Below, one piece after another: positions 1 to 24,474 of a stretch of DNA of 28,780 nucleotides. Below the pieces are notes generated by a model. That model ran no database searches. It worked only from the letters and a program-made list of their open reading frames with translations, and was not told the origin of the DNA. This DNA comes from a virus, in IMG/VR virus record IMGVR_UViG_3300043448_001059, positions 1 to 28,780 of that record, one strand, 5' to 3'. Position 1 is the first letter of the stretch, and each line of letters starts with the position of its first letter. A program made the position numbers and the translations under genes.

Positions 1-1862
1 AAGTTTCCTACCTTGACAGACTTGACTACATTCTTTCCTGAGCCTTCCGCCACACCTTGCTCGTCTAAGTCGTCTAATTTTAGAGTCCTATATTTTTGGG
101 CTCCAGAAAGGCTGAGTAATTCATCAATCAAATCACTTACATGGTCCATCCTTCTATTAGAAATTTGAGCTTCTAGGCCAGCACGCTCTCCCTTTGTAAT
201 ATAGATTTTAGCAATTTTTTTAGCGTAGGCAAAATCTTCAGGAGTAAAATCATCATATTCATCTTGTTCCACCGCGGGTAATTCTTGTAAGATTGCTTTA
301 CCAATTAGCTCTCCAGGATCATTAGGGGAGTTAACTACTTTAGTAAGGGCAATTTGTTTGATTTGATCAATATCGCCAATTTTTTGTCCATTTGATGATG
401 ATATCTCTTGCCACACTGCTACCCTATAACCTGGCAGTCCAGTGGATTGTAAACTGCTGTTTAAGCCACTGAAAAATTTGTTGATTTGGTTTACTGTATT
501 GACAATATTTTTTGCTAATATACTCTGATTATCAGATGTATAATTAGCATTGGTATCAAAGAATAGTTCTGAATAGCCTCTGCCATGTCCAGGATCAATC
601 ATACTCCATCCATTATCTCGACCAATTTTTATAAGATGTCGTTCAATTTCGTCTGGCTCAAATTCTATTTCACCGTCTAAGTCATCTCTATCAACTGAAG
701 ATGGCATGGGTTTGCCTTTAAGGGTCGCACCTTTGATTCGGTCTGATTTGTTTTCGCTGGCATATTCCACTGCCACATATCCTGTCACCGAAACTGGGGC
801 AGATTTCTTAATATTGCCCATCATGGTATCAAACTTATTATCTCCGGTTGCCTCCGCCACACCTTGCTTGTGTTTTTTAATCCAGGCATGTGCTTCATCT
901 CTGCTCTTGAATGGTCCCGCCACTGCCACCGCTTGCCCATCCTTGAACACACGCCAGGTTCCGTCTTTGGTTTCACGACCGGTATAGCCTTCCGCCACAC
1001 CTTGTTCTGATTTTTTCTTTTCAGGTTTCTTCACAGGCTTGGCTATGTCCTTATCACTAACTGGATAATCTCTTAAATGACGAGTAGTAGCATTAGGTTT
1101 CTTCGCCGCCTCTTCCACGCTTTCAGAAGGATTTGCTCCTGTAGGATAAACTTCTACTTCTTTGCCTTTCATTCTAAGACTTCTAGCAATATTCATAGCT
1201 TGCCTTTGATCAGCAAACACTTTCCAAGGCCTACCATTTATGCTTACCTGGTAGTTATTTCTTTCGTGTTCAACTCCGACGTTTCTTTCTCTATTCCGAA
1301 AATCGTTGTCTCTTTCTAATCTTCCTCCAAGGCTAAACTGATCATCTCTATTACGACCAAACCTACCCTCGTCTAACTCTTTACCTTTATGTTTTGCCTT
1401 ACCCTGTTTCTGATCTTTCTTTTTATCTTTGTGTTTACCTGCACCAGTTTGTGGACGTAGTGGACCCTGTCTTGGCTTTTGTGGAACACGAGCATCTTCC
1501 ATCATACGCTGTACAATACTACGAACTTGTTCTGTACTCTCATAAGATTCTTGTACTGGTAAAGGAGCAGGTGGACGTGGTCGTTGTCTTGGCATTATGC
1601 TATCTAATGCTTTTTTGGTAGCAGGCCCAAGTTCACTACCGCCTACGTATTCTGTAGTTTCTCTACCACCAGCTACGGTGACTATATGATAGCTGTCTGG
1701 TATTTTAAGACTTATAAGGATCATTTTATTAGTTTGTTGATCCAATACACCAGCCATACCATTATAACGTATATTAGCAAAGCCATCATCCAATTGTCCT
1801 AATACTTGCATATTAGGGATGTCAGCTTGCTCAACTAATTGGATGAAGTCTTTAATACTCAT
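1..1862 (-). CDS. Conserved phage protein with repeated modules, 3' end beyond the left edge
   Basis: An open frame starts at ATG 1862 (MSIKDFIQLVEQ) and stays open to the left edge, giving at least 620 residues. I do not recognise a catalytic domain. Residues about 100-190 are rich in Pro, Lys, Gln and Arg and look disordered. Two short modules of similar pattern follow, at about 204-241 (a YQV start, then PWKVFAD and an Ala/Arg helix) and 293-331 (a GTWRVFKDG core, then a DEAHAW helix). The motif QGVAE[GA] occurs three times, near residues 286, 332 and 601, encoded by nearly identical DNA. A more ordered region (RDNGWSMIDPGHGRGYSELF) lies near 410-430. The ATG overlaps the upstream stop (TAATG). 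The N-terminus resembles those of the following genes, so it is probably a virion or prohead-associated protein, which is inference. Confidence 0.7.
   Translation of the reverse strand, partial: MSIKDFIQLVEQADIPNMQVLGQLDDGFANIRYNGMAGVLDQQTNKMILISLKIPDSYHIVTVAGGRETTEYVGGSELGPATKKALDSIMPRQRPRPPAPLPVQESYESTEQVRSIVQRMMEDARVPQKPRQGPLRPQTGAGKHKDKKKDQKQGKAKHKGKELDEGRFGRNRDDQFSLGGRLERDNDFRNRERNVGVEHERNNYQVSINGRPWKVFADQRQAMNIARSLRMKGKEVEVYPTGANPSESVEEAAKKPNATTRHLRDYPVSDKDIAKPVKKPEKKKSEQGVAEGYTGRETKDGTWRVFKDGQAVAVAGPFKSRDEAHAWIKKHKQGVAEATGDNKFDTMMGNIKKSAPVSVTGYVAVEYASENKSDRIKGATLKGKPMPSSVDRDDLDGEIEFEPDEIERHLIKIGRDNGWSMIDPGHGRGYSELFFDTNANYTSDNQSILAKNIVNTVNQINKFFSGLNSSLQSTGLPGYRVAVWQEISSSNGQKIGDIDQIKQIALTKVVNSPNDPGELIGKAILQELPAVEQDEYDDFTPEDFAYAKKIAKIYITKGERAGLEAQISNRRMDHVSDLIDELLSLSGAQKYRTLKLDDLDEQGVAEGSGKNVVKSVKVGN
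42..1007 (-). repeat. Three dispersed copies of a GC-rich repeat encoding QGVAE[GA]
   Basis: On the plus strand nearly the same 18-19 bases (core TCCGCCACACCTTG) occur at 42-60, 850-868 and 987-1005. Each is read in the same frame of the minus-strand gene as Gln-Gly-Val-Ala-Glu-Gly/Ala. The copies are richer in G and C than the surrounding sequence and use the same codons. The near-identity at DNA level suggests recent duplication or recombination. The peptide has the shape of a T4-type prohead protease site (hydrophobic-x-Glu before a small residue), which is inference. Confidence 0.75.
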
Positions 1863-2947
1863 TATGCTGCTTTCTTCTTTTTAGCCATGGCAATAGCGGC
1901 CTGCTGTTTAGGATTTTTGGCTTCTTCCATACTACACTCTTTCATACCGTGTACTGGACAATTTTTTCCTTTGGCTGTATGATTACACTTGGCACTTTCA
2001 GCAACCTTTTTATCTTTAACAGCCTTTTTCATTGGCTCTTTTTTATTGCCATCTTTATCCATATCTAAAAAGTCTGGTTTAGCCTTTTTAGCTTCACTGA
2101 ATGGCTTACCTGATTTGGCTGCTGCTTTGGCACGACTACCCCATACTTCATCTTTAGGTGTTTCTTTTTTGCCATCACCGTCATAATCTTTTTTACTTAA
2201 TTTTTGACCTTCTCTTGTTTTTGTATTTTTAGGAGGTGGGGCTGTGGCACCATCTGGAGGACTTGGTACATTACCAGTTACACCGCCTTTTGGATATAAT
2301 TTATTAGTGGGTTTTGGTTGAGCCATTGTGTTTTCACTAGTTTTCTTACGAATGCTGTCCACGCTATAGCCTTGACTCTTATGATCACGACTTGCACGAT
2401 CTCTTACTTCGCCTTCGCTTTCACCTTCATCTGCATCATAGTGAACATTTTTAGTCTTAGCGCCATCCTTGTGCATCAACTTTACACTATATTGACTCTT
2501 TGTACTGGTATCAACTTTGCCCTTACGTTTGTCTTTAGCAGTAAATCCAGTGGCTTCTTCTACCTTTTCGTCCTTCTTTTTATCATCCTTTTTCTTCATC
2601 TTTTCAGCCTGTGCCTTTTTAAGGGCTTTCATTTTGTCCTTGGCTTCCATTAGTTTGTTTTTAAGGATACGTTTTTCTTCTGTGGTGTACATGTCACTCA
2701 TTTCAAGTTTTTGTCCATATTCATTGAACTTCATTTCATATTCCATGTAGTGATATACACTGGCCATATAGTCTGCGGCCTTAGTGATTTTAGCCTGTAC
2801 CCAACCATCAAGTTGAGAATTATCGTCCATCATTTTAAATAGCTTTAATGCATATTTGGCAGTCTTGTAGAGATCTGCCTTGGCCATTTTACCTTCATCA
2901 TTGTGTTCTGGTTCTGGCATTGTACTTTGCTGCATAATAGGATCCAT
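1862..2947 (-). CDS. Lys-rich conserved phage protein with DxDxDG loops and a Cys/His tail
   Basis: This 361-residue protein is strongly Lys-rich. Residues about 22-75 form a helical, ordered domain (ADLYKTAKYALKLFKMM, then GWVQAKITKAADYMASVYHY) of a kind I recall from uncultured marine phages, with no known function. Residues 95-135 are charged and probably coiled-coil, and 150-200 hold a small YSV...YSVDSI module. Two acidic loops, DYDGDGKKE (254-262) and DMDKDGNKKE (295-304), have the DxDxDG spacing of EF-hand or dockerin calcium loops. The tail carries C321, H323, C330, H333 and C338, a possible metal site. The start at 2947 has a GGAG Shine-Dalgarno and a GATAAATA late promoter about 20 bases upstream, so it is likely a late, virion-associated or scaffold-like protein. 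Confidence 0.8.
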   Translation of the reverse strand: MDPIMQQSTMPEPEHNDEGKMAKADLYKTAKYALKLFKMMDDNSQLDGWVQAKITKAADYMASVYHYMEYEMKFNEYGQKLEMSDMYTTEEKRILKNKLMEAKDKMKALKKAQAEKMKKKDDKKKDEKVEEATGFTAKDKRKGKVDTSTKSQYSVKLMHKDGAKTKNVHYDADEGESEGEVRDRASRDHKSQGYSVDSIRKKTSENTMAQPKPTNKLYPKGGVTGNVPSPPDGATAPPPKNTKTREGQKLSKKDYDGDGKKETPKDEVWGSRAKAAAKSGKPFSEAKKAKPDFLDMDKDGNKKEPMKKAVKDKKVAESAKCNHTAKGKNCPVHGMKECSMEEAKNPKQQAAIAMAKKKKAA

Positions 2948-2967
2948 ATCGTACTCCGAATTTAGTA

Positions 2968-2975
2968 TATTTATC
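2968..2975 (-). promoter_or_regulatory. T4-type late promoter
   Basis: The minus strand reads GATAAATA, one base off the T4 late consensus TATAAATA, about 20 bases before ATG 2947. It overlaps the stop codon of the preceding gene. It belongs to a set of six such sites in the window. Confidence 0.65.
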
Positions 2976-3198
2976 GTTTTATTGTAGTTCCACCAAATAA
3001 GCTGATATTGCTATCAAGTGCATTTTTAGCTGTTCCATTAGGATTCTTATTTGAATCTACACGTGGTGGTTTAGGTTTTTTACCCTTACCATATTCTTTA
3101 ATATTACCTATAGCAATGTGTGGATTTGGAACAGCAACTACATTTCCTGCACTGGTCGCTCCTGCACTTGCTGTTTCAAATAGCTCTCGTATTCTCAC
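2971..3198 (-). CDS. Small protein with capsid-targeting-like N-terminus
   Basis: The product is 75 residues from a GTG start, one base after the upstream TAA; a GGAA lies just upstream. It begins MRIRELFETASAG, which closely resembles the first residues of several neighbours and the T4 internal-protein signal MKTYQEFIAEA. The remainder is low-complexity (Ala, Gly, Lys, Pro, Asn) with no recognisable fold. If the leader is cut after FET or similar, a peptide of about 65 residues would remain, comparable with T4 internal proteins. The function is unknown, and the internal-protein idea rests only on the N-terminus and context. Confidence 0.65.
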   Translation of the reverse strand: MRIRELFETASAGATSAGNVVAVPNPHIAIGNIKEYGKGKKPKPPRVDSNKNPNGTAKNALDSNISLFGGTTIKR

Positions 3199-3199
3199 A

Positions 3200-3556
3200 T
3201 TAAATTCCGTATTTGTTAGTTTTTGGTTTAGCCACAGGACTTATCTTATTAATATCTTTGAGTTCTTCACTATGACCTTTGGTTACTATATTTTTTCCTT
3301 TTATACCTTGGTTGCGTTCTGCTGCACTTACTATATCTTCGTCACCTTTGCTATATAACCAAACTGTAGGAACATCCTTAGCAGGACCAGCTTTGTTTAT
3401 ACTTTTATCAGGTGCACCGGCCATAGCTATACCAAAGCGATACATTCCGTAATATTGATCAATATCCTGATATTGTTTAGCATGAGGATGTGATTGTCTT
3501 ACGTTTTTGCCTAACTTTTTATCAGCCTTTTCTGTAATTATATCTCTGATCTTCAT
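3200..3556 (-). CDS. Conserved small phage protein, function unknown
   Basis: The product is 118 residues, starting MKIRDIITEKADKKLG at an ATG that overlaps the upstream TGA (ATGA). The N-terminus again resembles the leader found on its neighbours. The middle (KQYQDIDQYYGMYRFGIAMA, about residues 28-47) looks folded, followed by a segment containing VPTVWLYSKGDEDIVSAAE. I have seen this kind of protein in marine phage genomes but know no function. There is no signal peptide, membrane segment or metal motif. Tight coupling to the nucleotidylyltransferase upstream suggests co-expression. Confidence 0.7.
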   Translation of the reverse strand: MKIRDIITEKADKKLGKNVRQSHPHAKQYQDIDQYYGMYRFGIAMAGAPDKSINKAGPAKDVPTVWLYSKGDEDIVSAAERNQGIKGKNIVTKGHSEELKDINKISPVAKPKTNKYGI

Positions 3557-4962
3557 TGCTTGAACATATCCTTTGAACCAAACACTTGTCCAAACTTGTC
3601 ACCTAACATACCTTTTAGTTTGTCACGTTGATCTGCACGTAGCACAATCATACCATTATCAAACTTGTAGCCCATGTCACGTAGTTTTGGCATTAGTTCA
3701 GTGGCCAACAATTTATATCTAAACACATTGGGCTGTGCCACTGCTTGTCCACCCATTTGACTATTAGGTTTGCCTGGTATGGGCACACGACGTCGTTTAC
3801 CATCTGGACCAACAACAAAATGATCTACACCTTTAGGTTTAGTATCTGGTTCAGAGCCAGCGTCCTTACCTTTATATAGTTTAAAGCGTTCGTCAGCACC
3901 ACCTGCTATAAGGCTTTTTAATTCGTTTAGTTCTTCGCCAAACTCACTACGCATAGCACTTAAAGGGAATACAAGTTCAGCAGCCTCACCACCAATAAAG
4001 TCCACATCACGTATAGCATCCTCTAATTCACCAAGAGCACTGCTGGCATCTTGGAATTGAAAGTTCACTCTCAATGGACGACCTTTGCCACCCTTCTTAT
4101 CTCTAATACCTACGTTTTGACTACGTTGTACAACTTCTTCTGGGAATGTGGCAAAGTCACCTATAACATGGACTTGTTCAGTTCTTGGGTTCAGTTTGAA
4201 TATAATATATAGTGTGCCACTGGGCTGTTCTAATTCATATAATCTCATTTCTTTAGCCTTCTTTTTTGATTTAGCAGCAGCGAATTGACCCATACGCTCC
4301 TTGGCCTTACGCATTAGGTCCATAACCTGTGCATCATCTATTTCTGGACTCATAGAATCACGCCATACTGCAAATGGCAATTCAACATCCGCCACTCCTT
4401 TGAATTTAGCCATTAATTCTGGATTATCTTTCTTAAATTTATCCAAGTCAGTTAGTACAGTTCGCATAGGGGTAGCACGTGGGCCTTCTTCACTAGCACT
4501 GGGATCTCCTGTTTCTTGACGGGAAATAACGTCTAGATTATCAAACTTAAATGGAATGTCACCTGCTTTGTTAGGTTTACCGTTATATTGTTTAAGATAT
4601 TGGAATGCCTGTTTTTGATCAGCACCAACCACTACAGTGACATTATTATAGCCTTGTTGATTTAAATTAGTTAATACTCTAGTTAGATCAGGCAATTCAT
4701 CTGTAGCAGTTTGAAAAATGTGTCCCTGTTCTGGAAATACTTGTTTGTATATGGCTAATTTTTCTTCAGGTTGTAATGGATCATCTGGACCGTATGTTCT
4801 ACTCACTACAAAATAAGGATCACCGTTTAGTTTATCCGCATAAGTTATAACACTTCTGGCCAACATCATATGACCTTTGTGTCCCATACCACGCCCCCAA
4901 CCTACTACGGCTGTATTACCTTCTCCTGTACGATCAAGTTCAAATAGCTGTCTTAGTCTCAT
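3553..4962 (-). CDS. HxGH-type nucleotidylyltransferase with C-terminal extension
   Basis: The product is 469 residues. The start is set at ATG 4962, not TTG 4983: AAGGAAAGG precedes it, it overlaps the upstream TGA (ATGA), and it gives MRLRQLFELDRTGEG, matching the neighbours' leader. Residues 16-125 resemble a Rossmann-like cytidylyl/adenylyltransferase (NMNAT or CCT superfamily): strand TAVVGWGRG, the HxGH signature at 28-31 (GHKGHMML), and VTVVVGADQ at 108-115. A true ISTxxR motif is not clear. The linker at 228-240 is Lys/Ala-rich, and then EMRLYELEQPSG (238-249) looks like a second copy of the leader, suggesting fusion of two genes. The 250-469 part is not recognised. The substrate is unknown; NMN, CTP-linked or nucleic-acid-related roles are possible. 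Confidence 0.75.
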   Translation of the reverse strand: MRLRQLFELDRTGEGNTAVVGWGRGMGHKGHMMLARSVITYADKLNGDPYFVVSRTYGPDDPLQPEEKLAIYKQVFPEQGHIFQTATDELPDLTRVLTNLNQQGYNNVTVVVGADQKQAFQYLKQYNGKPNKAGDIPFKFDNLDVISRQETGDPSASEEGPRATPMRTVLTDLDKFKKDNPELMAKFKGVADVELPFAVWRDSMSPEIDDAQVMDLMRKAKERMGQFAAAKSKKKAKEMRLYELEQPSGTLYIIFKLNPRTEQVHVIGDFATFPEEVVQRSQNVGIRDKKGGKGRPLRVNFQFQDASSALGELEDAIRDVDFIGGEAAELVFPLSAMRSEFGEELNELKSLIAGGADERFKLYKGKDAGSEPDTKPKGVDHFVVGPDGKRRRVPIPGKPNSQMGGQAVAQPNVFRYKLLATELMPKLRDMGYKFDNGMIVLRADQRDKLKGMLGDKFGQVFGSKDMFKQ

Positions 4963-6839
4963 TCGCCTTTCCTTGGAGCCCAATTAGCTTGGTCAATAGC
5001 TTTTACAAATTGTCCTGGTAAATCATTTTGGAAAGGTGTGCCAGGATGAGCACTAACATATCCTTCTGGTTTGGTTTGTCTTATACCATTATGTGTACCA
5101 CTGCTTAAGTTTTGTATCATTTCTAATTTAGCTTTGGTTAGTAATTCTACAGCAGTCAATACAGCATCCATACCAGCACGATCTTTTAGTATAAGATCAG
5201 CCTGTTTAGTACTGGTGTTAGCAGTTACCCAGTCAATAAATTTTTGTCTAACTCCAGGTATACGCAAGTTTTGATTATAGAATTTGTATAATAAATCACC
5301 TGGTTTGCTCAGTCCTGGTTTAGGTGACAGGAAGTTATTGATCAAATTAGCGTTTTCTTTTATATATTCTTGTACATTATCTAAGTTATTATTTGTAAAC
5401 TGTGGTGCTTGTTCTACGTAAGTAGTTCCTTGTACTATAGTATCAGGAGTGCTCAAGCTTTCTGGATTAGGGTATCTATCTTCATCACTGCTGCCCAGGG
5501 TTTCATAATATCCTGTAGCAGCCACCATAACTTTAGCAGATCGTATTCTGCGACCTAAATCACTATTTTTACCAATATGAAATGTGGTGATATTTGGAGT
5601 GAATTCATATTCCTGTGTCTGACTATTCAGCACAGGTTTAGCAGTTTGTCCATCTGGTTTAGCACCAGGATAAAATAATAAGCCACCTTCTAAAAATCCT
5701 TCCTCTGGACTGGCCTGTTCAAAATAGGGCCATAAACTACTTAATTGTTTGGCGTATTGTTTACGTTGAGCCAATTGTTCTGGATCAGCTTTACCAGTGC
5801 CCATTAAAAATTTCTGTACTTCTTCTGCACTACGGGGTACAGTGCTTATACCATTTTGTAATTCTGTTTTACCACGTTTAAGATATTCCCAAGCATTTTT
5901 AGGAATCATCATAAATTGACCATCTTGTTTGCCCCAATATACTACAGGGCTACCATCCCATTTAAGTTCAATATTACCACCTTGACTACTCATATAGCGT
6001 AGACGTTCTACAGCATGTAGTCCACCTTTAGCACCATTAGTAAACACAAGATCTTCAATGTGTTGATACTTGCGACCTATTGTTGGTGCAGCAGCTTCAA
6101 AAAATTTACGCTCTGGACCTTTTAGTGGACTACTTTTCCAACTTTGCCCACTTGCTGCCAAGTTATAAATTTTTTCACGTTGTGCTGGATTCAATACGTT
6201 CATTATACTTTCTACACTGCCCAGGTCACGACTTGTAGCTATAGGACCCAATAGACGTTGTGCTATTTCATCCATATCTGTAGATATAAGATTAGCTTTT
6301 TTACCTTTATCATCTCTAGCAAAAAGGCCTTCGTCTGGACTCCATAACATACCTTGGCTACTAGCCAAAGCATTCATAACCATTTGTTTATGTACACCTT
6401 TATAAGGACTATCTTTTGGTAATTCGTGTACATGAAATCTATGTACTTGCTGTGCATTAGGTACTACTTTTATATCCACCTGATGAAAACTACGCCCAAA
6501 TGGTAATTTAACATGAACTTGACTGCCACTTTTTTTAGTATCAAGTCCTTTGCCTTGTAGGTATTTTTCTAATTCTACTCTAACACCTTTTGCATCTTGT
6601 TGTTGGAAAACTTTAGCAGCTACGCCTGCATCAGCCATTACATCAAGATCTCCACTCATAACACCAGCTGTAGGTGTTGCTCCACTGCCTATACGATATA
6701 ATTTAATACCAGTACCTTGTAGGTATCGTTCAAGTTCTGTTTCTAATCTAGGTGCAAGACTTTGGTCAAATGGTTCAACATCGTCCCAAATATTGCCACC
6801 TTCTTTAAGAGGCTTACGAAACAGTTCACGCAGCATCAT
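4959..6839 (-). CDS. Nucleotidyltransferase plus ligase-like bifunctional protein
   Basis: The product is 626 residues, beginning MMLRELFRKPLKEGG (ATGA overlap with the gene before; the second ATG at 6836 is equally possible). Residues 45-130 show the pol-beta-type nucleotidyltransferase signature: GSG (51-53), GDLDVM with D64 and D66, and a third acidic strand VDIKVVP with D122. After a helical linker, residues 258-310 contain QHIEDLVFTNG and then ELKWDGSPVVYWG; KWDG at 293-296 matches the KxDG nucleotidyl-lysine motif of DNA/RNA ligases. EGGLLFYP (384) and PEGYVS (E592) could be later ligase motifs, but the spacing is long. It may be an RNA/DNA end-processing enzyme; the activity and substrate are inferred. 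The leader peptide suggests packaging in the capsid. Confidence 0.75.
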   Translation of the reverse strand: MMLRELFRKPLKEGGNIWDDVEPFDQSLAPRLETELERYLQGTGIKLYRIGSGATPTAGVMSGDLDVMADAGVAAKVFQQQDAKGVRVELEKYLQGKGLDTKKSGSQVHVKLPFGRSFHQVDIKVVPNAQQVHRFHVHELPKDSPYKGVHKQMVMNALASSQGMLWSPDEGLFARDDKGKKANLISTDMDEIAQRLLGPIATSRDLGSVESIMNVLNPAQREKIYNLAASGQSWKSSPLKGPERKFFEAAAPTIGRKYQHIEDLVFTNGAKGGLHAVERLRYMSSQGGNIELKWDGSPVVYWGKQDGQFMMIPKNAWEYLKRGKTELQNGISTVPRSAEEVQKFLMGTGKADPEQLAQRKQYAKQLSSLWPYFEQASPEEGFLEGGLLFYPGAKPDGQTAKPVLNSQTQEYEFTPNITTFHIGKNSDLGRRIRSAKVMVAATGYYETLGSSDEDRYPNPESLSTPDTIVQGTTYVEQAPQFTNNNLDNVQEYIKENANLINNFLSPKPGLSKPGDLLYKFYNQNLRIPGVRQKFIDWVTANTSTKQADLILKDRAGMDAVLTAVELLTKAKLEMIQNLSSGTHNGIRQTKPEGYVSAHPGTPFQNDLPGQFVKAIDQANWAPRKGE

Positions 6840-7225
6840 TTATAAAGACCGTCCTTAAGATTACGTAGTTCAGTTTCATATATAGCGTGAGCTATTTCTT
6901 CAGTTAGATCTTCCTCTATACTTTCCTCAAGTTCACGAACTGGAAATTCTTTTCTATATGCTTCATAGGCTTTTTTAATCACTGGTTTAAAAACTCTATG
7001 TGAAAAATCACCACCACTTTCAAACTGTGCCTTACAAGTTTTTAATACAGGAAAAAAATGACGTCTATAAAAGTCATCATTATTATGCATGAAGTATACA
7101 AGATCTTCTGCTAAATCAAACTCATATTCATTGTTGTGACCTTTGATCATTTTTTTAGGTCCTGAGCTCTTGAGCATATCCTCAATTGATACTTCACTGT
7201 TTCCAAACATTTCAAATAATTTCAT
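6836..7225 (-). CDS. Conserved small phage protein, function unknown
   Basis: The product is 129 residues and acidic, starting MKLFEMFGNSEVSIED, which shares the Leu-Phe-Glu character of the neighbours' leaders. The body is predicted mostly helical (DLAEDLVYFMHNNDDFYRRH at about 36-55, then KAYEAYRKEFPVRELEESIE). No motif is recognised. It starts two bases before the position expected for coupling with the upstream TAA (TAATAATATG) and overlaps the next start by ATGA. It is probably a virion-associated or regulatory protein of the same transcription unit as the nucleotidyltransferases. Confidence 0.7.
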   Translation of the reverse strand: MKLFEMFGNSEVSIEDMLKSSGPKKMIKGHNNEYEFDLAEDLVYFMHNNDDFYRRHFFPVLKTCKAQFESGGDFSHRVFKPVIKKAYEAYRKEFPVRELEESIEEDLTEEIAHAIYETELRNLKDGLYK

Positions 7226-7229
7226 ATTA

Positions 7230-7820
7230 TTACCACGCTCTACATGACCAATAACGAGCTTTCCATTTAGGACCAGGATTGTCGCAATTATGTCTTGCTC
7301 TAAAATTTTTCCGCCTTGAAGGTATATGTTTTTTAATACTTAATTGTTTATCACCAAAATTAACCTTGACAATTTTACCATTAGGCTTTCGTACATATAC
7401 TTTGCTCTTGGCTACATCACCTTTCATAGGCTTACCTAAAGGAACATTATGTCCTTGATGTTGTGCTTCATGTTCAATATTTTCAGCAGCACCTCCAACA
7501 AATTTACCCTTTGGATACCCTGTTGGTCCTGGGCTACGTAGTTGTCCTGCACGACCTATTTTATGTTTGCCTAAACCGGCAAAAGGATAAGTTTTATCAT
7601 CCATTAAAAATTCTTCAAAAAAACTGATTCCAGTATCCTGTAGAAGGGCTATACCCATTTGGTCTAATTCTACTAGAATTGCATCCTCTAATACCATGAG
7701 GACTTCAGTTTCTATAGCATCACGATCATTGAGATCAAAATAGAATCCGTCTCCAGGTTGTATGTCTACATCCTCGGATTCTACTTGTTCAATGTATTCT
7801 AATATGCTTTTATTAGCCAT
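7230..7820 (-). CDS. Conserved phage protein with C-terminal RARH...YWSC basic module
   Basis: The product is 196 residues, starting MANKSILEYIEQVESED. ATG 7820 has an AGGAG Shine-Dalgarno and a GATAAATA late promoter. The N-terminal 75 residues are acidic. Residues 78-115 are Gly/Pro-rich and contain a GAAENIEHEA stretch. The last 60 residues form a compact basic module, KVYVRKPNGKIVKVNFGD then RRKNFRARHNCDNPGP and KARYWSCRAW, with C179 and C193 in a pattern I recall at the C-terminus of many marine phage proteins, often attached to otherwise different N-termini. The module's role is unknown; nucleic-acid or metal binding is a guess. It is the first gene of the 7820-1 late operon. Confidence 0.75.
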   Translation of the reverse strand: MANKSILEYIEQVESEDVDIQPGDGFYFDLNDRDAIETEVLMVLEDAILVELDQMGIALLQDTGISFFEEFLMDDKTYPFAGLGKHKIGRAGQLRSPGPTGYPKGKFVGGAAENIEHEAQHQGHNVPLGKPMKGDVAKSKVYVRKPNGKIVKVNFGDKQLSIKKHIPSRRKNFRARHNCDNPGPKWKARYWSCRAW

Positions 7821-7836
7821 ACAGACTCCTATGTAA

Positions 7837-7844
7837 TATTTATC
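7837..7844 (-). promoter_or_regulatory. T4-type late promoter
   Basis: The minus strand reads GATAAATA (followed by T), 17 bases before ATG 7820, with an AGGAG between it and the start. It would drive the operon of leader-bearing genes at 7820-2971. Confidence 0.7.
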
Positions 7845-7873: not shown

Positions 7874-8512
7874 CTATGCCTTTGCTTTGACCACACGATC
7901 TATGCGTTGTATATTTGAACCAATAAACATTTGTACCATACTCAAACTTTTAGCATCTTTAACGTAAAAGTAGCTATCTCCTACCCTCCACCCACGCTTA
8001 ACGTGGCGTTGACAGCGTTCTGGCATACGAATTTTATCATTATCTCTACACCATTTAAAGAAGCTTTCGTTGTTATCAATACGGTTTGAAATGGTGACTT
8101 TGTAGTCATAATCAATTCGTTTTAGATAAATTGTATTTTTTTCTAAAACTGGATCTTTTTCAGACGGCATACTGATATATCTAATTTGATTTTTAAGGGC
8201 TTTAGTTAGGCTATTAAAATCAGCTTGATTATCAGTATAAAAACTTATCCATGGACTACTGACCATTACCTTATATTCTGCACCACTTGAATTTATAGTA
8301 TTGGCTATATTCAGCCCTATATCATAATCAGATTTATGACCTCCGTAGATATAGGGCGGAAACTTATCAACACTTTTCCAATACTGTATTTTGTTGATAA
8401 TAGCACTAATGTCCTTATTTCTAAACATAGGTGCAAATTTAGTTGTTAGAACTACTTTATACCTATATTTGTCTAAAAATAATTTGTTAGTTCTCTTCGT
8501 GGGTAATAACAT
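7874..8512 (-). CDS. Conserved phage protein of unknown function downstream of clpA
   Basis: The product is 212 residues. The frame is open from TTG 8530, with ATGs at 8524 and 8512. I chose 8512 (MLLPTKRTNKLFLDKYRYKVVL) because it gives the shortest overlap with clpA and starts just before the first ordered strand; no start has a good Shine-Dalgarno. The sequence alternates strands and helices, contains YKVMVSSPWISFYTDN near residues 85-100 and a basic C-terminal part (MPERCQRHVKRGWRVGDSYF) near residue 166. No catalytic motif or membrane segment is seen. The frame runs 26 bases into the clpA 3' end, so translation is coupled. A link to proteolysis by position is only a guess. Confidence 0.7.
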   Translation of the reverse strand: MLLPTKRTNKLFLDKYRYKVVLTTKFAPMFRNKDISAIINKIQYWKSVDKFPPYIYGGHKSDYDIGLNIANTINSSGAEYKVMVSSPWISFYTDNQADFNSLTKALKNQIRYISMPSEKDPVLEKNTIYLKRIDYDYKVTISNRIDNNESFFKWCRDNDKIRMPERCQRHVKRGWRVGDSYFYVKDAKSLSMVQMFIGSNIQRIDRVVKAKA

Positions 8513-10748
8513 CAGATGATTCATTTTCAATCACTTTAGGTTGTTTTACTTTCTTTGTTAAAGTTATAGCCCCATCTACTAATGTTATAGTAAGGCTTCC
8601 ACCATCCTTTAAATCGCCAAACAGCATCATACGACTTAAGGGACGTTTGATCTCCTTGTCTATAACACGTTGTAGTGGACGGGCACCCATCTTACTATCA
8701 AACCCCTTTTCGATCAAGTGATTTATAGCAGCATCGTTAATACGTATGCGAATGCCCTTGTCTGATACTTGTTGTTTAAGTTCATCAATAAACTTAACAA
8801 CAATCTTATACATTGTATCCTTATTCAACTTGGTAAATGTTATGATAGCATCTAAACGGTTTCTAAATTCAGGAGCAAAGAACTTCTTTAGATCCTTGTC
8901 ATCGTAGTCTTTTTCCTGCTTGCCAAAACCAATTTGATTCTTTTCAGCAGCCTGTGCTCCAGCGTTTGTAGTAAGAATTAAGATAATATTTCTACAATCT
9001 GCTTTCTTACCATTGCTGCCAGTGACAAAACCATTATCCATCATCTGTAATAGGATAGTGCTTACATCTGGATGGCTTTTTTCAACTTCGTCAAATAATA
9101 ATACGCTATAGGGATTTTCTTGAATTTGTGTAATCAGTAAGCCTGCGTTTTCTTCAAAACCAACATAACCTGGAGGACTACCTATTAGTTTACTTACACT
9201 ATGCTTTTCTTGATACTCACTCATATCAAAACGAATAAGTTTTACGCCAAGATGTTTGGCCAGTGTTTTAGCTGTTTCCGTTTTACCACAACCTGTTGGG
9301 CCCATAAACACAAATGATCCAATAGGTTTGTTTTCAGGTTTTAGACCAGCACGAGCTACCAGTATTTTATCTACAAGTTCTGTAACAGCGTTATCTTGTC
9401 CAAATACTTCTGCATTAATTTGTGTTTCTAAGTTGGCAAGATTATTACTTTCAGTTTCAGCAATTTGTTCTTCTGGAATTTGTATAGATTGCGCTAACTC
9501 ATATTGAATTTGATCTTCACCAATAATACGTTCTTGATCCATTTTAATATTAAACCTACTACAAGCACAATCAATAAGATCGATAGCTTTATCAGGTAAT
9601 TTTTTATCACTTTGATATTTTACACTGAGTTTAACTGCTGCTTGAATAGCTTCATCTGTAATTTTAACTTTATGAAATTGTTCATAATATTTTTTTACAC
9701 CTTTAAGTATCTGTATACTATTATCGTAACTGGGCTCATCAATAGTAATACGTTGGAAACGTCGCATAAGGGCACGGTCTTTTTCAAAGTATTTACGATA
9801 TTCCTCCCAAGTTGTGCTGGCAATTACTTTAATATTACCTTTACTCAGTGCTGGTTTCATCATATTCGCAAGATCATTAGCACTGTTACCTGCACTACCT
9901 GCACCACTAATCATGTGTGCTTCATCAATGAACAATATAGTTTTACCCTTGGTTTGTAGACCTTTAAGTACAAGTTTGAATCTTTCTTCAAAATCTCCTC
10001 TATACTTACTGCCAGCCAGCATACTACTAATATCAAGATTATAAACTTTATAGTCTTTTAGAAATTCGGGAACATGACCTTTAACTATATTAAATGCCAG
10101 TCCTTCTGCAATAGCAGTTTTACCAACTCCAGGATCACCTACAAGCATAACATTATTTTTATTACGACGACCCATGGCCAAGGCAATATTTTCTAATTCT
10201 GATATACGTCCAATTACAGGATCTACCTTATTGCGCTTGACTAATTCATTTAGGTTAGTTGTAAAGGCTTTTAATGCTCTATCTGCTTGATGATCACTTA
10301 CTTCTTCCTCTTCACTTTGAATTTCGTTGTTCAAGTAGTCTGCAAATTTATTTTTATCTACTCCTGCTTGTTGTATATAGTAACTGGCATAGCTACGTTT
10401 TTCGCCCATAATACTAAGGAATACATCACTAAGTTCCATAGTTTGACGACCATTAAATAGAGCCTGTGTAAATGCACGATTAAGAACACGTTCTACAGCC
10501 TGTGTCTTTTTTGGTTTTACGACATCTTCTTTAACAATATCATTTAATTTATTTTTGAGATAGTGATCAAGATTTGTTTTAATATATGCTACATCTGCAC
10601 CATATCCCTGCACACTATTTACAAAGTGTTCTTCATTGAGCATACTGTATAATAAATGCTCTATTGTAACATATTCATGTTTTAAATTTTTGGCTAACTC
10701 AATAGCATTTTCAAATACTGCTTTCAGACTTTCGCTGGGCTCTACCAT
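8487..10748 (-). CDS. clpA: ClpA-like AAA+ unfoldase
   Basis: The product is 753 residues, the usual ClpA length, with no ClpB middle-domain insertion. A Clp N-domain spans about 1-145. The first AAA+ module has Walker A GDPGVGKT (204-211) and Walker B ILFIDEAH (271-278); the second has GPTGCGKT (483-490), pore loop GYVG (527-530), Walker B VLLFDEVEK (549-557) and PEFRNRLD arginine/sensor region (626-633). The tripeptide IGF (606-608) sits where E. coli ClpA has the IGL loop that docks on ClpP. No ClpP or ClpS is encoded nearby, so it probably uses host ClpP. ATG 10748 has an AAGGA Shine-Dalgarno and lies 38 bases inside the deformylase gene. The C-terminal tail after 735 is acidic. It uses ATP to unfold proteins in the cytoplasm. 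Confidence 0.92.
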   Translation of the reverse strand: MVEPSESLKAVFENAIELAKNLKHEYVTIEHLLYSMLNEEHFVNSVQGYGADVAYIKTNLDHYLKNKLNDIVKEDVVKPKKTQAVERVLNRAFTQALFNGRQTMELSDVFLSIMGEKRSYASYYIQQAGVDKNKFADYLNNEIQSEEEEVSDHQADRALKAFTTNLNELVKRNKVDPVIGRISELENIALAMGRRNKNNVMLVGDPGVGKTAIAEGLAFNIVKGHVPEFLKDYKVYNLDISSMLAGSKYRGDFEERFKLVLKGLQTKGKTILFIDEAHMISGAGSAGNSANDLANMMKPALSKGNIKVIASTTWEEYRKYFEKDRALMRRFQRITIDEPSYDNSIQILKGVKKYYEQFHKVKITDEAIQAAVKLSVKYQSDKKLPDKAIDLIDCACSRFNIKMDQERIIGEDQIQYELAQSIQIPEEQIAETESNNLANLETQINAEVFGQDNAVTELVDKILVARAGLKPENKPIGSFVFMGPTGCGKTETAKTLAKHLGVKLIRFDMSEYQEKHSVSKLIGSPPGYVGFEENAGLLITQIQENPYSVLLFDEVEKSHPDVSTILLQMMDNGFVTGSNGKKADCRNIILILTTNAGAQAAEKNQIGFGKQEKDYDDKDLKKFFAPEFRNRLDAIITFTKLNKDTMYKIVVKFIDELKQQVSDKGIRIRINDAAINHLIEKGFDSKMGARPLQRVIDKEIKRPLSRMMLFGDLKDGGSLTITLVDGAITLTKKVKQPKVIENESSDVITHEEN

Positions 10749-11250
10749 ATTTTTTCCTTAGTTTATTCCATTTTTTCATTGCTAAATCTTGTTTTAGCTT
10801 ACTGACTCTATCTATAAAACATACACCATCGAGATGATCTAATTCATGTAAAAAGCACTTGGCATCTATTCCTTGTAGTGATATTACACAATTATTACCC
10901 TCGCTGTCAAGATATTCCGCCATTATTGTTTCCGGTCTTTTAACTGGAATAAGCATTTTGGGAAAACTCAAGCAACCCTCAAGTGCTTCAATCTGCTTGT
11001 CACTGGCTGCTTGTAAAGTAGGGTTGAACATGGCAAATGGGCCCATTTGCAAACTTAAATCTTTTGGAAAAATTGCGATAACTCTAGCTCTTACACCAAC
11101 TTGATTACCACTTAATCCTATCCCTCCTTGCCCAACCATTAGTTCAATCATTTGTTTTTCTAATAACTTTGGATCCATTATAGGATTTTCAAAGTCAAAA
11201 TCGGGCATACTTTCCCTTAAAATTTCATTTGGGAAGGTTATCAATTGCAT
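10711..11250 (-). CDS. def: Peptide deformylase
   Basis: The product is 179 residues, close to bacterial deformylase length. All three metal/active-site motifs are present: GIGLSGNQ (43-50; classic GxGLAAxQ), EGCLS (91-95, zinc or iron ligand C93) and HELDH (135-139, two His ligands and the catalytic Glu). The enzyme removes the formyl group from nascent N-terminal methionine at the ribosome. Phages of phototrophs and other marine bacteria carry such genes and are thought to speed maturation of short-lived proteins, a known precedent. A Lys/Arg-rich C-terminal helix (150-179) could bind the ribosome. ATG 11250 has AGAGGAAAT upstream and overlaps dnaJ by 26 bases; its own 3' end overlaps clpA. 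Confidence 0.92.
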   Translation of the reverse strand: MQLITFPNEILRESMPDFDFENPIMDPKLLEKQMIELMVGQGGIGLSGNQVGVRARVIAIFPKDLSLQMGPFAMFNPTLQAASDKQIEALEGCLSFPKMLIPVKRPETIMAEYLDSEGNNCVISLQGIDAKCFLHELDHLDGVCFIDRVSKLKQDLAMKKWNKLRKKYGRAQRKSESSI

Positions 11251-12067
11251 TTTTTATTTCCTCTAACTTTCTTTTTATATTGTCATTGTTAATAGCAGGT
11301 ATGCGTATGTATACTATTATTATAAAGTCTCCTAAGTTTCCTGTCTTTATATTTGGAAATCCTAATCCTTTAGCAGCATACTCTCCCCCATGGGTCATAC
11401 CAGGTTTAATTCTTATGTTTAACATATTGCCATCTATAGTTTCAATAGGTTTAGTACATCCAATCATAGCTTCTATTGGATCTATTTCAATTATAGTGGT
11501 AATGTCGTCTCTGCGTCTTGTAAAGTTTAGATCATCTGCAACATTAATTGTTACATTTAAATCCCCTCTTGGCAATTGTGGATATGTGTCATCGCCCATA
11601 CCTCTAAACTTAATTACATCATTATTTTCTACACCAGCAGGAATATTGATCACTACAGTTTCTTTTCTATTAGAAGGTAAAGCATATTTGGCTTCTATTT
11701 CCTTGCCTTTAAAACTATCTAATAATGTTATTGTACAGCGTATATTAAGATCAAGATTTTTGTTTCTTACATGTTTTCGACCAAAATCAAAGCCATGACG
11801 ACCTCTAAATAGATCATTAAAAACATCATGTATATCTTCGAAACTTCTAAAATTTCCATTAAAATTAGTTTTTAAATTTATTTCATTATCGTATCTATTG
11901 CGCTTGTTTGGATCACTTAATGTCTCATAAGCTTGATTAATTTTTTGGAACTGACTTTCATCTCCACCCCTGTCAGGATGGTGTTCCATTGCCAACTTTC
12001 TAAAAGCTGATTTTATATCTTGAGCACTTGAATCGCGGGTTACACCCAGTATGTCGTAGTAGTTCAT
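11225..12067 (-). CDS. dnaJ: DnaJ/Hsp40 co-chaperone without zinc finger
   Basis: The product is 280 residues. The J-domain is at 1-60 (MNYYDILGVTRDSS, HPD at 30-32), followed by a short Gly/Phe/Asn region (about 66-100) and the two beta-sandwich substrate-binding domains (105-265; e.g. VVINIPAGVENNDVI). The CxxCxGxG zinc repeats of classical DnaJ are absent, so it is a type-B/CbpA-like Hsp40. It would stimulate host DnaK ATPase and deliver clients. It is the first gene of the dnaJ-def-clpA overlap operon. Unusually there is no Shine-Dalgarno; the ATG immediately follows the T-run of a perfect 10-bp hairpin (12072-12098). Confidence 0.93.
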   Translation of the reverse strand: MNYYDILGVTRDSSAQDIKSAFRKLAMEHHPDRGGDESQFQKINQAYETLSDPNKRNRYDNEINLKTNFNGNFRSFEDIHDVFNDLFRGRHGFDFGRKHVRNKNLDLNIRCTITLLDSFKGKEIEAKYALPSNRKETVVINIPAGVENNDVIKFRGMGDDTYPQLPRGDLNVTINVADDLNFTRRRDDITTIIEIDPIEAMIGCTKPIETIDGNMLNIRIKPGMTHGGEYAAKGLGFPNIKTGNLGDFIIIVYIRIPAINNDNIKRKLEEIKNAIDNLPK

Positions 12068-16139: not shown

Positions 16140-16147
16140 TATTTATC
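16140..16147 (-). promoter_or_regulatory. T4-type late promoter
   Basis: The minus strand reads GATAAATA, 23 bases before ATG 16116. It is the leftward promoter of the divergent phoH region and would drive the lysis operon (16116-12125). It also decides the start of that first gene. Confidence 0.7.
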
Positions 16148-20431: not shown

Positions 20432-22827
20432 ACAGTAACGCCTTGATTTTTAAATACCAGATATTTATCGTTGCCATACCCGCTTATACTATCAATAATA
20501 TATCTATCAACCACATAGTCTAAATCATTGAAATTAAAATTTGTAGTGGCCATGTAATTTTTTATGTTTAAAATGATTTCTTGACTCATATTAGGTTTAC
20601 AATAACACAAGGGCATGGCTAGTACAAAGCCTAATTCTTCTTTATTACTTTGAAAACTGGTCATCCATAATGGCAAATAATTTCTTTCGCTGGCTATACT
20701 TTTGCCATTGATAAGTTCATGATATCGTATTCTTCTACGCCAATTAGTAATTGTATTTGGATATCTCTTACTGGACTGCGGATCACTGGCCAATAAGTTA
20801 GTACGATCTATGGTTATGTTTTCTAATGGTCTAGCAGACATTATTTCTCTTTTCTTTACAAAGCTATATTGATCCTGTGCCTTCCATAGATAGTTACTGG
20901 CATCTGCTGTAATTACTGTGTTAACTTTACTGAATTTTTTTGTTTCTAAAGGAAGATGTTGATCTTTCTTATCTAGTGGATCAATAATATCAACATATAT
21001 TATTTCATACACAGTGTTATTGGTGCCTGGAACTGTGGCTCTAGCAGTTTTTATATCACCAAATAAAAATCGTTTTCTCTGATGATTGAGACCAATGATA
21101 CTGATATATTCACCAACATCAACAGTTTCTATACCAGCATAGACCAGTATACGCATGTCAGTCTTTAGACCAAAATTAGGATCAGTTATACGGTATATAT
21201 TTTTTTGTGGGAACACATTTTCATTTAAAATAAAATCTTTAAATAATTTTCTTTTACCTATACTCATATAACTGGTAGTGTATATGTTACTATAGAGCCT
21301 ATCATTAGGTGTGTTTATATCTAAAATAAATTCTCTATCTATAGCACTATAGTTTAATTGGTCATAGGCTCTAACAACAAATCTATAACTCTTATCTATA
21401 GTAGTTTCACCACCATCTAAGGTTTGATTACTAATACGTTCACCAAGTTCTATATCATAAAAAGTTGTTATACCTGGATTATTTTGGCTAGTATATTGCT
21501 GTACTTTACCAACTATCTCACCCTCATCCATTAAGTTAAGACCTGGAGGTAATTGACCTTCCATAATTTGATATCTAATTACAGAATTATCTAAAGTGCT
21601 AGATGCTTGTATTTTTAGAGTACTGGTGTAATTAGCATCAATTGTGCCTAGGTTGTTGGGGCTAATCCATTTTAATGTACTATCAATCTGTCCCAGTATT
21701 GTAATACTAAAGGTTCTAGGCACCGGAGCTGTTTCATTATCATTACCAAATCTTGTTACTGTAACAGTAAAGTGATAGGTTTTAGTGAACTCTGGCTGAT
21801 AAGGTAATAGGCCAAATAGTTCACCACTCTTTATATCTAATTTTAGACCAGGAGGAAGTACACTAGCAGTTTGATCTGGATTCAGTGGATTTAAATAGTA
21901 TTGTACTGGTCCAATGTCCACAGTATTATAAATGTCTAGTTTAATTATTTGATAGTTATTACACCTAACTGTGCCTAAATTAGGAGGTGTGCGCCAAATA
22001 GGAGTTTTCAAACTACTACTGCTGGCTAGATATGATCCAGTACCTACTCTTAGTATTGTATTATCTGCTCTGAGATAGTCCTCACCAACAACGTATATTC
22101 TAAACTTTTTTCTTATTATTGTGTCGCCATCTGTTATAGTCACTATGAATTCATAATTTCTATTAAGTTTTCTAAGTCCTTTAGTTGGAGCACTGTAATC
22201 AAAGGTTATACTATCAAATCCAAAGCTATCAAATCCATTATCGGATACTAGTCCATAGTCAAAGGCCACAGCATCATAACCTTGACTGTCATAATTACCA
22301 TTTTGTTCATTTAATTTTATAGCTAGTAAAGGATCTATAAAGCCACTAATGCGTCCACTGTCACTTAGTGTAGTGCCTGGAGGTAATAGGCCATCACCAC
22401 TGGCTATGAAAAATCTTAATCTTTGTCCTGCTGCTGTATCAGTGTCAGTTACTTCTAGTTGAAAGTCGATAGGAGTTGAATCAAGAACAAAATAAGTTTC
22501 GTTAGGTCCCACTGGCAATAATCCAGGATTAGTAAGAACTATCGGTTCATCACTGCCATTAATGGTTATTCTCAATGTGCGATCGGCTATTTCACTATCT
22601 TTTTCAGCACGTATACAAAAATTAAAAGTAGTAGGTCTTACTACTTCTAGAGGGGTTCCTAATATTTGATTATTTTTTAACCTAATTCCTGGAGGCAGTT
22701 GTCCACTTATTATGCTATACTTTACATTAGGTATATTTGAAACAACAGGTAAAGAAACATTTACAGATGATCTTTCTTCAAAAGTTCCTAAACTATGACC
22801 AGATTTTACGCTCCAAATATCTAACAT
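20428..22827 (-). CDS. Large virion surface protein with putative Ig-like (He_PIG) repeats
   Basis: The product is 799 residues. At least four repeats of the He_PIG/putative-Ig type are visible, each with a xLPPGxxL turn followed by G-x-I-x-G: LPPG at 44-47, 148-151, 324-327 and 426-429 (e.g. ISGQLPPGIRLKNNQILGTP at 40-59). Such domains act as cell-surface or fibre adhesion units. A two-copy motif, DSQGYDAVAFDY (180-191) and DSFGFDSITFDY (200-211), is inserted in the second unit. Residues 500-799 are different: mixed strands, NWRRRIRYHELINGKSIASE and a C-terminal domain. ATG 22827 has GGGAG and a perfect TATAAATA upstream. Likely a tail or baseplate-attached fibre. Confidence 0.78.
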   Translation of the reverse strand: MLDIWSVKSGHSLGTFEERSSVNVSLPVVSNIPNVKYSIISGQLPPGIRLKNNQILGTPLEVVRPTTFNFCIRAEKDSEIADRTLRITINGSDEPIVLTNPGLLPVGPNETYFVLDSTPIDFQLEVTDTDTAAGQRLRFFIASGDGLLPPGTTLSDSGRISGFIDPLLAIKLNEQNGNYDSQGYDAVAFDYGLVSDNGFDSFGFDSITFDYSAPTKGLRKLNRNYEFIVTITDGDTIIRKKFRIYVVGEDYLRADNTILRVGTGSYLASSSSLKTPIWRTPPNLGTVRCNNYQIIKLDIYNTVDIGPVQYYLNPLNPDQTASVLPPGLKLDIKSGELFGLLPYQPEFTKTYHFTVTVTRFGNDNETAPVPRTFSITILGQIDSTLKWISPNNLGTIDANYTSTLKIQASSTLDNSVIRYQIMEGQLPPGLNLMDEGEIVGKVQQYTSQNNPGITTFYDIELGERISNQTLDGGETTIDKSYRFVVRAYDQLNYSAIDREFILDINTPNDRLYSNIYTTSYMSIGKRKLFKDFILNENVFPQKNIYRITDPNFGLKTDMRILVYAGIETVDVGEYISIIGLNHQRKRFLFGDIKTARATVPGTNNTVYEIIYVDIIDPLDKKDQHLPLETKKFSKVNTVITADASNYLWKAQDQYSFVKKREIMSARPLENITIDRTNLLASDPQSSKRYPNTITNWRRRIRYHELINGKSIASERNYLPLWMTSFQSNKEELGFVLAMPLCYCKPNMSQEIILNIKNYMATTNFNFNDLDYVVDRYIIDSISGYGNDKYLVFKNQGVTV
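20462..20469 (-). promoter_or_regulatory. T4-type late promoter inside the upstream gene's end
   Basis: The minus strand reads GATAAATA (codons for Asp-Lys-Tyr of the 799-residue protein), 30 bases before ATG 20431. Spacing is slightly longer than at the other sites. Confidence 0.6.
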
Positions 22828-22844: not shown

Positions 22845-22852
22845 TATTTATA
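22845..22852 (-). promoter_or_regulatory. T4-type late promoter (exact consensus)
   Basis: The minus strand reads TATAAATA, identical to the T4 late consensus, 17 bases before ATG 22827 and just after the glycosyltransferase stop. Confidence 0.8.
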
Positions 22853-24466: not shown

Positions 24467-24474
24467 TATTTATC
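24467..24474 (-). promoter_or_regulatory. T4-type late promoter
   Basis: The minus strand reads GATAAATA, 19 bases before ATG 24447 and directly after the stop codon of the large collagen-like gene. Confidence 0.7.

Follow-up and report, generated by a model that had tools for sequence, protein, structure and literature searches.

The window analysed here is the whole of a 28,780-bp stretch (IMG/VR virus record IMGVR_UViG_3300043448_001059), a contig fragment without head genes whose source is a giant T4-like phage; judged by capsid protein, the nearest cultured relatives include the giant phages PBECO4, Vibrio phage 2.275.O and Phosso. Otherwise unrelated genes starting between positions 1862 and 7820, each named below by its start position, begin with similar short peptides, which are very probably T4-type prohead-targeting propeptides on a changeable set of cargo proteins. 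For the source phage we infer the following steps from sequence: the leader would attach to the prohead's scaffold core as that core grows, the S77 prohead protease would cut after the leader glutamate as it is predicted to do in the capsid protein, and the cargo, left packaged in the head, would be injected into the next host together with the DNA. This cargo would comprise a polymerase-beta-type nucleotidyltransferase–DUF6267 fusion, a cytidyltransferase/NMNAT-like protein, and small basic or capsid-mimicking proteins. The leader alone is a variant of a kind known from T4; the new part would be a double role of a second element, the QGVAE joint, in DNA and in protein.

Shared leaders and their predicted cleavage site

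An initial annotation of the window had noted shared N-terminal leaders on seven consecutive genes with unrelated bodies. All seven are present at the claimed starts, every one on the minus strand (Table 1), and Pfam and PHROG assign their bodies to different families or to none, so that a single paralogous family, which would have spoken against the leaders, was not found. The starts, said to be supported by a ribosome site at 4962 and by overlaps, do have that support in the window sequence, with an AAGGA site preceding 4962 and stop/start overlaps at 6839, 3556 and 1862; the 3198 gene begins with GTG. Gene 2947..1862 is without a leader. The leader consensus is M[KR][IL]RE[LI][LFI]xE↓ (8–9 residues; the arrow marks the end of a leader or joint), of which MSIKDFIQLVE and MANKSILEYIE are looser variants with homologues MSLEKYIKIVE↓, MDMKKYITLVE↓ and MSKLLLEYIE↓.

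Relatives were fetched from IMG/VR, including, in full, a 399,796-bp contig that carries the 6839 gene at 91% identity to the window copy. Their gene products, clustered after dropping the first 20 residues, formed 951 body-clusters; greedy clustering with coverage was used, single-linkage having joined unrelated families via modular genes. The scan of related contigs that the initial annotation had proposed found the leader pattern enriched: with one member drawn per cluster and column shuffles as the chance level, the strict pattern occurred in a mean of 18.4 (minimum 14) of the 951 representatives versus 1.16 (maximum 5) in shuffles, and on 9 of the 459 genes of the 399,796-bp relative versus 0.43 expected (maximum 3; 500 shuffles). 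Loss of the leaders in homologues, also named beforehand as a point that would tell against them, is not what we observe. Homologues of the window genes retain leaders, and the initial methionine and Glu8 of the 4962 gene are kept in 30/30 aligned homologues. No cultured relatives were found by tblastn with the 118-aa gene or with the long open reading frame (ORF) at 1862.

Most leaders terminate in [LIVF]xE↓ with the body beginning directly after, matching the L/I-X-E cleavage specificity of T4 gp21 (PMC9026906), and [LIVFMY]xE stands at residues 7–17 in 82% of leader families versus 29% of others. A prohead protease was sought for site comparison, again as proposed, and PF03420 (S77 prohead protease) was detected in the 399,796-bp relative (E 3.5e-26) and in 4/12 and 3/12 long relatives. 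Gene order in the 399,796-bp relative is T4-like (portal, gene-67-like, two other ORFs, gene-68-like, protease, scaffold, capsid), the names of the two core genes being assigned by position. The gene in its T4 gene-67 slot begins MILRELFYLN and its 6839-homologous cargo gene begins MILRELFARP, a link between the cargo leader and the prohead core. In the relatives' capsid protein the same glutamate site stands before the predicted N-terminus of the mature form, placed by alignment at KYLAE↓TASAGTTSAGNVA in the 399,796-bp relative and at KYLAE↓SATAGATSAGNVA, KYLKE↓NASAGSTGSGNIA and LLSE↓SSAGTTTAGNIA in others. The leaders thus appear to share a cleavage site, as predicted from these alignments, with the capsid protein of the phage's relatives.

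The 3198 gene, which reads MRIRELFE↓TASAGATSAGNVV, carries 13 residues that are a nearly exact copy of the capsid-protein site segment. In the 399,796-bp relative this mimic motif is confined to two genes, the 3198 homologue and the capsid gene, which encode it with differing codons; glutamate precedes it in 31/31 distinct contexts. PBECO4 and Vibrio phage 2.275.O have a 54–58 aa gene with the same segment, MKKKNIKE↓NASSGATSAGAIASV. Being common to distant cultured giant phages, the mimic may do more than act as a protease site, and its gene in these two phages offers a laboratory system.

Fusions, cassettes and the QGVAE joint

Where cargo genes are fused, the leader persists inside the protein as an [LIVF]xE↓ site. 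Many relatives have the 626-aa product of the 6839 gene split between a nucleotidyltransferase gene and a DUF6267 gene, the latter beginning M[KR][IL]REL..E↓AAAP (e.g. MKIRELLTE↓AAAPTVGRKYQHIEDL), and in the fused window protein the junction reads RKFFE↓AAAPTIGRKYQHIEDL. [LIVFM]xE directly precedes DUF6267 in 30/30 distinct fused and 32/32 split versions. In the AlphaFold2 model of the 626-aa protein (mean pLDDT 85), pLDDT falls below 50 only at residues 1–14 and 248–257, corresponding to the leader and the internal site, and at the last four residues. Foldseek with this model identified the polymerase-beta superfamily, nearly all among the matches listed aligning over ~200 residues, which we take to be the N-terminal domain bearing the GSG...SGDLDV signature. 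Of the two nucleotidyl-transfer enzymes claimed in the initial annotation, the polymerase-beta-type fold is therefore confirmed, and the 4962 product is cytidyltransferase/NMNAT-like by family only; Foldseek with its 469-aa model gave no match at E <= 0.001. A further fusion, in L117, joins a whole MRAQEFIKE↓ leader gene to the tail of a 4962-type gene.

DUF6267 also contains an invariant KWDG (window 5900–5970, minus strand) resembling motif I (KxDG) of covalent nucleotidyltransferases, e.g. nucleic-acid ligases, for which a profile search gave no confirmation. Since the profile of the 626-aa family, covering mainly DUF6267, found no PDB sequence, the ligase-like KWDGSP motif is a guess. Our literature search on DUF6267 and DUF6321 found nothing relevant.

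The long ORF (1862..3, minus strand) contains three QGVAE motifs at cassette boundaries, each encoded by the in-frame repeat CAAGGTGTGGCGGA(A/G)G. GVAE[GA] occurs 61 times in the relatives' non-redundant genes versus 2 in shuffles, nearly always in cargo-type genes. In 84 of 97 unselected GVAE instances the valine codon is GTG (background 12%), and the alanine codon is GCG in 84/97 (background 6%). The DNA core AAGGTGTGGCGGA is present in 76 copies in unselected loci, every one in sense orientation and in the same reading frame, and a 19-bp form of the joint occurs in >120 IMG/VR stretches with unrelated flanks. The DNA conservation and fixed frame of the joint are firm, and cleavage there is a prediction. 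The 21-bp form had 0 matches in 84,980 prokaryote genomes, the core was absent from six cultured phages, and a literature search on the QGVAE peptide found nothing relevant.

The same cassette can follow either a leader or a joint, as in MKIREVINE↓GWTQKYKKSINC versus GVAE↓EWSQKYKSSINC, MKIYEILNE↓DWQKVNKNDNTDG versus GVAE↓DWQKVNKSDKTDG, MKITDLIE↓NFADG versus GVAE↓NFADG, and MKITNLLPE↓AGPYGSRNPD versus GVAE↓AGRYGSRNPD. Among 78 N-termini matching post-GVAE cassettes, 24 have glutamate exactly at the boundary (background 7%), a count made without DnaJ proteins, whose natural LGVAEN had inflated the comparison. Related cassettes (median length 116) are flanked by differing neighbours across phages. 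Together these comparisons show packaged-type genes to be modular, with leader and QGVAE joints interchangeable before the same cassettes. A Pfam search of three multi-cassette ORFs and four cassettes returned only DUF5872, DUF6321, DUF5661 and a weak DUF7230. Cyanophage gp114-type proteins (L332 S-SRM01, L333 S-PRM1, L334 P-SSM2) likewise string these cassettes together (DUF5872, DUF6321, KCW.GY.KKG), using other [LIV]xE joints without the QGVAE DNA repeat, and the S-CREM2 virion proteins gp137 and gp160 bear such cassettes.

We tentatively suggest that the repeat core serves twice in freshwater giant T4-like phages, as a DNA joint for cargo-domain exchange and as a prohead-protease site at which a packaged polyprotein is cut for injection; in relatives QGVAE↓ links many exchangeable cassettes within one precursor, which the protease acting on the leaders may also cut. 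If it is a true protease site, the joint would give phages a new means of assembling and reshuffling the sets of proteins that they inject. A rather doubtful alternative holds that leaders target the head as proposed, with the joints being uncut scars, in frame by chance, left where cassettes recombined through a mobile or microhomology DNA element, and the long cargo being packaged whole. Conservation of the joint DNA beyond codon usage, amid unrelated flanks, fits such a recombination site, whereas the common strand and frame of all 76 cores, the start of the same cassettes after both leader E↓ and QGVAE↓, and the resemblance of VAE↓ to the capsid site LAE↓ argue against this alternative.

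Virion homologues and alternative explanations

It is also conceivable, but unlikely, that the tag brings scaffold accessory proteins to the prohead for assembly and that these disappear, by degradation or loss, ahead of infection, so that none is injected. In T4 the core proteins bearing gp21 sites are indeed mostly destroyed (PMC9026906) and the gene-67-slot gene carries the same leader, but enzymatic folds would be wasted as scaffold and cyanophage homologues have been recovered from mature virions. The 4962 gene has homologues in 382 phage records, most of them from cyanophages; identity is low (~24–33%) and covers part of the protein. The S-SM1 cytidyltransferase is present in purified virions (PMC3037559); this homologue starts MKKFSAFLNE↓AERS and that of DSL-LC02 starts MKRFLQFLSE↓AETM, while in the T4 record ipIII starts MKTYQEFIAE↓ASVV and gp24 starts MAKINELLRE↓STTT. 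A pattern built from T4 ipIII, S-SM1 and DSL-LC02 (MK.[YF]..F[IL].E) was run on the 219 genes of S-CREM2, for which a published virion proteome gives coordinates (PMC10665884). Only three genes match, those for a SAM hydrolase (gp6), a kinase (gp14) and a cytidylyltransferase (gp154), and each product is a virion protein (p = 0.013 overall; 0.002 against non-structural virion proteins), some S-CREM2 N-termini having been seen before this test. A looser pattern, chosen post hoc, gave 5/5 virion proteins. No leader is reported for cyanophage NMNAT-like virion proteins in the literature found (PMC3037559, PMC10665884, PMC9602691). A separate S-CREM2 virion protein, the Cas9-like gp12 (OR473000, 7704–10313, minus strand), has LRFASFMAE↓AAVD slightly inside its N-terminus and is possibly a packaged nuclease.

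A reading of the shared starts as an RNA signal, for translation initiation or of the RegA type, and not as a protein tag is very improbable. Leaders do sit at the start codons of one operon's genes, but their codon choice matches background usage and varies freely, so that the conserved unit is the peptide and not the DNA, and they survive as internal peptides at fusions, far from starts. Because leader DNA varies, a back-translated leader pattern searched in its own record gave no match. One paralogous family, or chance among short Met-starting peptides, can be set aside as a negligible prospect: the motif is short and its residues simple, but bodies without their first 20 residues cluster apart in different families and the 18.4 representatives observed compare with 1.2 expected.

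Several points weigh against the leaders being prohead-targeting propeptides. For the source phage and its closest relatives this reading comes from sequence, the gene starts rest on a small home-made hexamer-based gene caller, and the window being a fragment without head genes, the protease and capsid evidence is drawn from relatives. The leader of the 7225 gene is an exception among those of the window in having no clear [LI]xE. Window leaders are shorter than the T4 ipII/ipIII leader and do not match it at every targeting position (residues 4 and 7 tested), which makes them a related kind and not the same element. Strict leaders number 2 each in PBECO4 and Vibrio phage 2.275.O versus ~0.5 by chance; as cultured relatives carry so few, the leader system has been expanded in one freshwater lineage. 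Finally, NMNAT-like proteins, kinases and SAM hydrolase recur in cyanophage virions, and the S-CREM2 authors were undecided between cargo and contamination (PMC10665884), although the leader on the S-CREM2 virion enzymes speaks for cargo.

If the leaders are indeed targeting propeptides, a readable leader would make head cargo predictable from its gene, would link the classical internal proteins of T4 to large uncultured phage groups and, with the joint, could be used for loading chosen proteins into phage heads. The window also has six minus-strand T4-late-promoter-like [GT]ATAAATA sites, most of them a short way before gene starts. A ClpA/B-like ATPase, a peptide deformylase and a DnaJ-like protein (8487–12067, minus strand) adjoin the cargo genes, and a collagen-like tail protein with long GxQG/GTQG repeats occupies 24475–26892 (minus strand).

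Table 1. Leaders, predicted sites, joints and associated features; positions refer to the window unless another phage is named.
Feature	Position	Strand	Support or related sequences
Loose leader variant MANKSILEYIE↓ of 196-aa gene (phrog_7595 C-terminus)	7788..7820	-	homologue MSKLLLEYIE↓
Leader MKLFEMFGNSE of 129-aa gene	7193..7225	-	homologues MRIKELLE↓, MKIIELLE↓
Leader MMLRELFRKPLKE↓ of 626-aa nucleotidyltransferase + DUF6267 protein	6801..6839	-	AlphaFold2 pLDDT < 50 at residues 1-14
626-aa cargo; residues ~20-245 polymerase-beta-type nucleotidyltransferase fold, ~256-626 DUF6267	4962..6839	-	Pfam, AlphaFold2, Foldseek
Internal site FFE↓AAAP (Glu248), disordered linker 248-257; split homologues start there with full leader	6096..6104	-	
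Leader MRLRQLFE↓ of cytidyltransferase/NMNAT-like gene	4939..4962	-	Glu8 invariant, 30 homologues
469-aa cytidyltransferase-like cargo (phrog_3041/395), variable tail after residue ~230	3556..4962	-	
Internal leader relic MRLYELE↓Q at the fusion point of a second domain (residues 239-245)	4228..4248	-	
Leader MKIRDIITE↓ of 118-aa gene	3530..3556	-	homologues
Leader MRIRELFE↓ of 75-aa gene, GTG start	3175..3198	-	homologues
TASAGATSAGNVV, copy of segment after predicted capsid cleavage site LAE↓TASAGTTSAGNVA	3136..3174	-	
Capsid-mimic small proteins	window 2974-3198; PBECO4 266296-266460; Vibrio phage 2.275.O 16459-16635		
Leader variant MSIKDFIQLVE↓ of long modular ORF running off contig	1830..1862	-	
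QGVAE↓ joint, DNA CAAGGTGTGGCGGAAGG	988..1004	-	
QGVAE↓ joint, DNA CAAGGTGTGGCGGAGGC	850..866	-	
264-aa cassette between two QGVAE joints	60..851	-	related cassettes, other neighbours, in L053, L265, L316, L226
QGVAE↓ joint, DNA CAAGGTGTGGCGGAAGG	43..59	-	
T4-late-promoter-like GATAAATA upstream of cargo genes (gene 7820)	7837..7844	-	
T4-late-promoter-like GATAAATA upstream of gene 2947	2968..2975	-	
All [GT]ATAAATA sites	2968-2975, 7837-7844, 16140-16147, 20462-20469, 22845-22852, 24467-24474	-	

Comparison with known systems

T4 internal proteins IPI–III and Alt carry capsid-targeting sequences cut by gp21 (PMC9026906). Like these, the leaders described here are N-terminal peptides of ~10 residues on unrelated proteins, with a basic residue near the start, a hydrophobic centre and an [LI]xE↓ end, and they occur with an S77 protease (here in relatives) and with enzymes among the cargo. 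Unlike them, they have their own consensus rather than MKTYQEFIAE, span 8–9 residues, serve other cargo families and are also found internally at fusions. The likeness to T4 capsid targeting claimed in the initial annotation holds for the shared peptide on unrelated bodies and for the gp21-type end, and is strengthened by the capsid-site match, the protease, the gene-67-slot tag and the virion-detected cyanophage homologues, but it does not extend to the sequence of the internal-protein leader. The leader is closer to that of T4 gp24, whose propeptide has the same K-I-x-E-L-L-x-E and whose MAKINELLRE↓, the arrow marking what we take to be the cut position, is 6/8 identical to MKIRELLTE of a DUF6267 homologue. 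The T4 vertex protein gp24 is cut (PMC9026906) and is a shell protein, whereas the peptide here sits on cargo.

The cyanophage NMNAT/cytidylyltransferase virion proteins of S-SM1, S-CREM2 and S-SCSM1 (PMC3037559, PMC10665884, PMC9602691) belong to a homologous enzyme family. The leaders of S-SM1, S-CREM2 and DSL-LC02 share the xE↓ end with those of the window but are of the MKxFxxFLxE type. In phiKZ and SPN3US, propeptides of head-packaged proteins are removed by a T4-gp21-related protease (PMC9026906). Their inner-body proteins resemble the present cargo as head proteins with removable propeptides (predicted here) and differ in phage lineage and in having no short leader in common with it. 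We know of no cassette joints in these inner-body proteins. Polyvalent proteins of phages and conjugative elements are multi-domain, DNA-delivered and sometimes processed, and include polymerase-beta nucleotidyltransferases (PMC5512222). The multi-cassette ORFs and the polymerase-beta nucleotidyltransferase, seen here as genes, are similar to these; in contrast to polyvalent proteins, the three multi-cassette ORFs and four cassettes searched with Pfam have no zincin or papain-like peptidase, and processing is predicted to occur at the repeated joints via the prohead protease.

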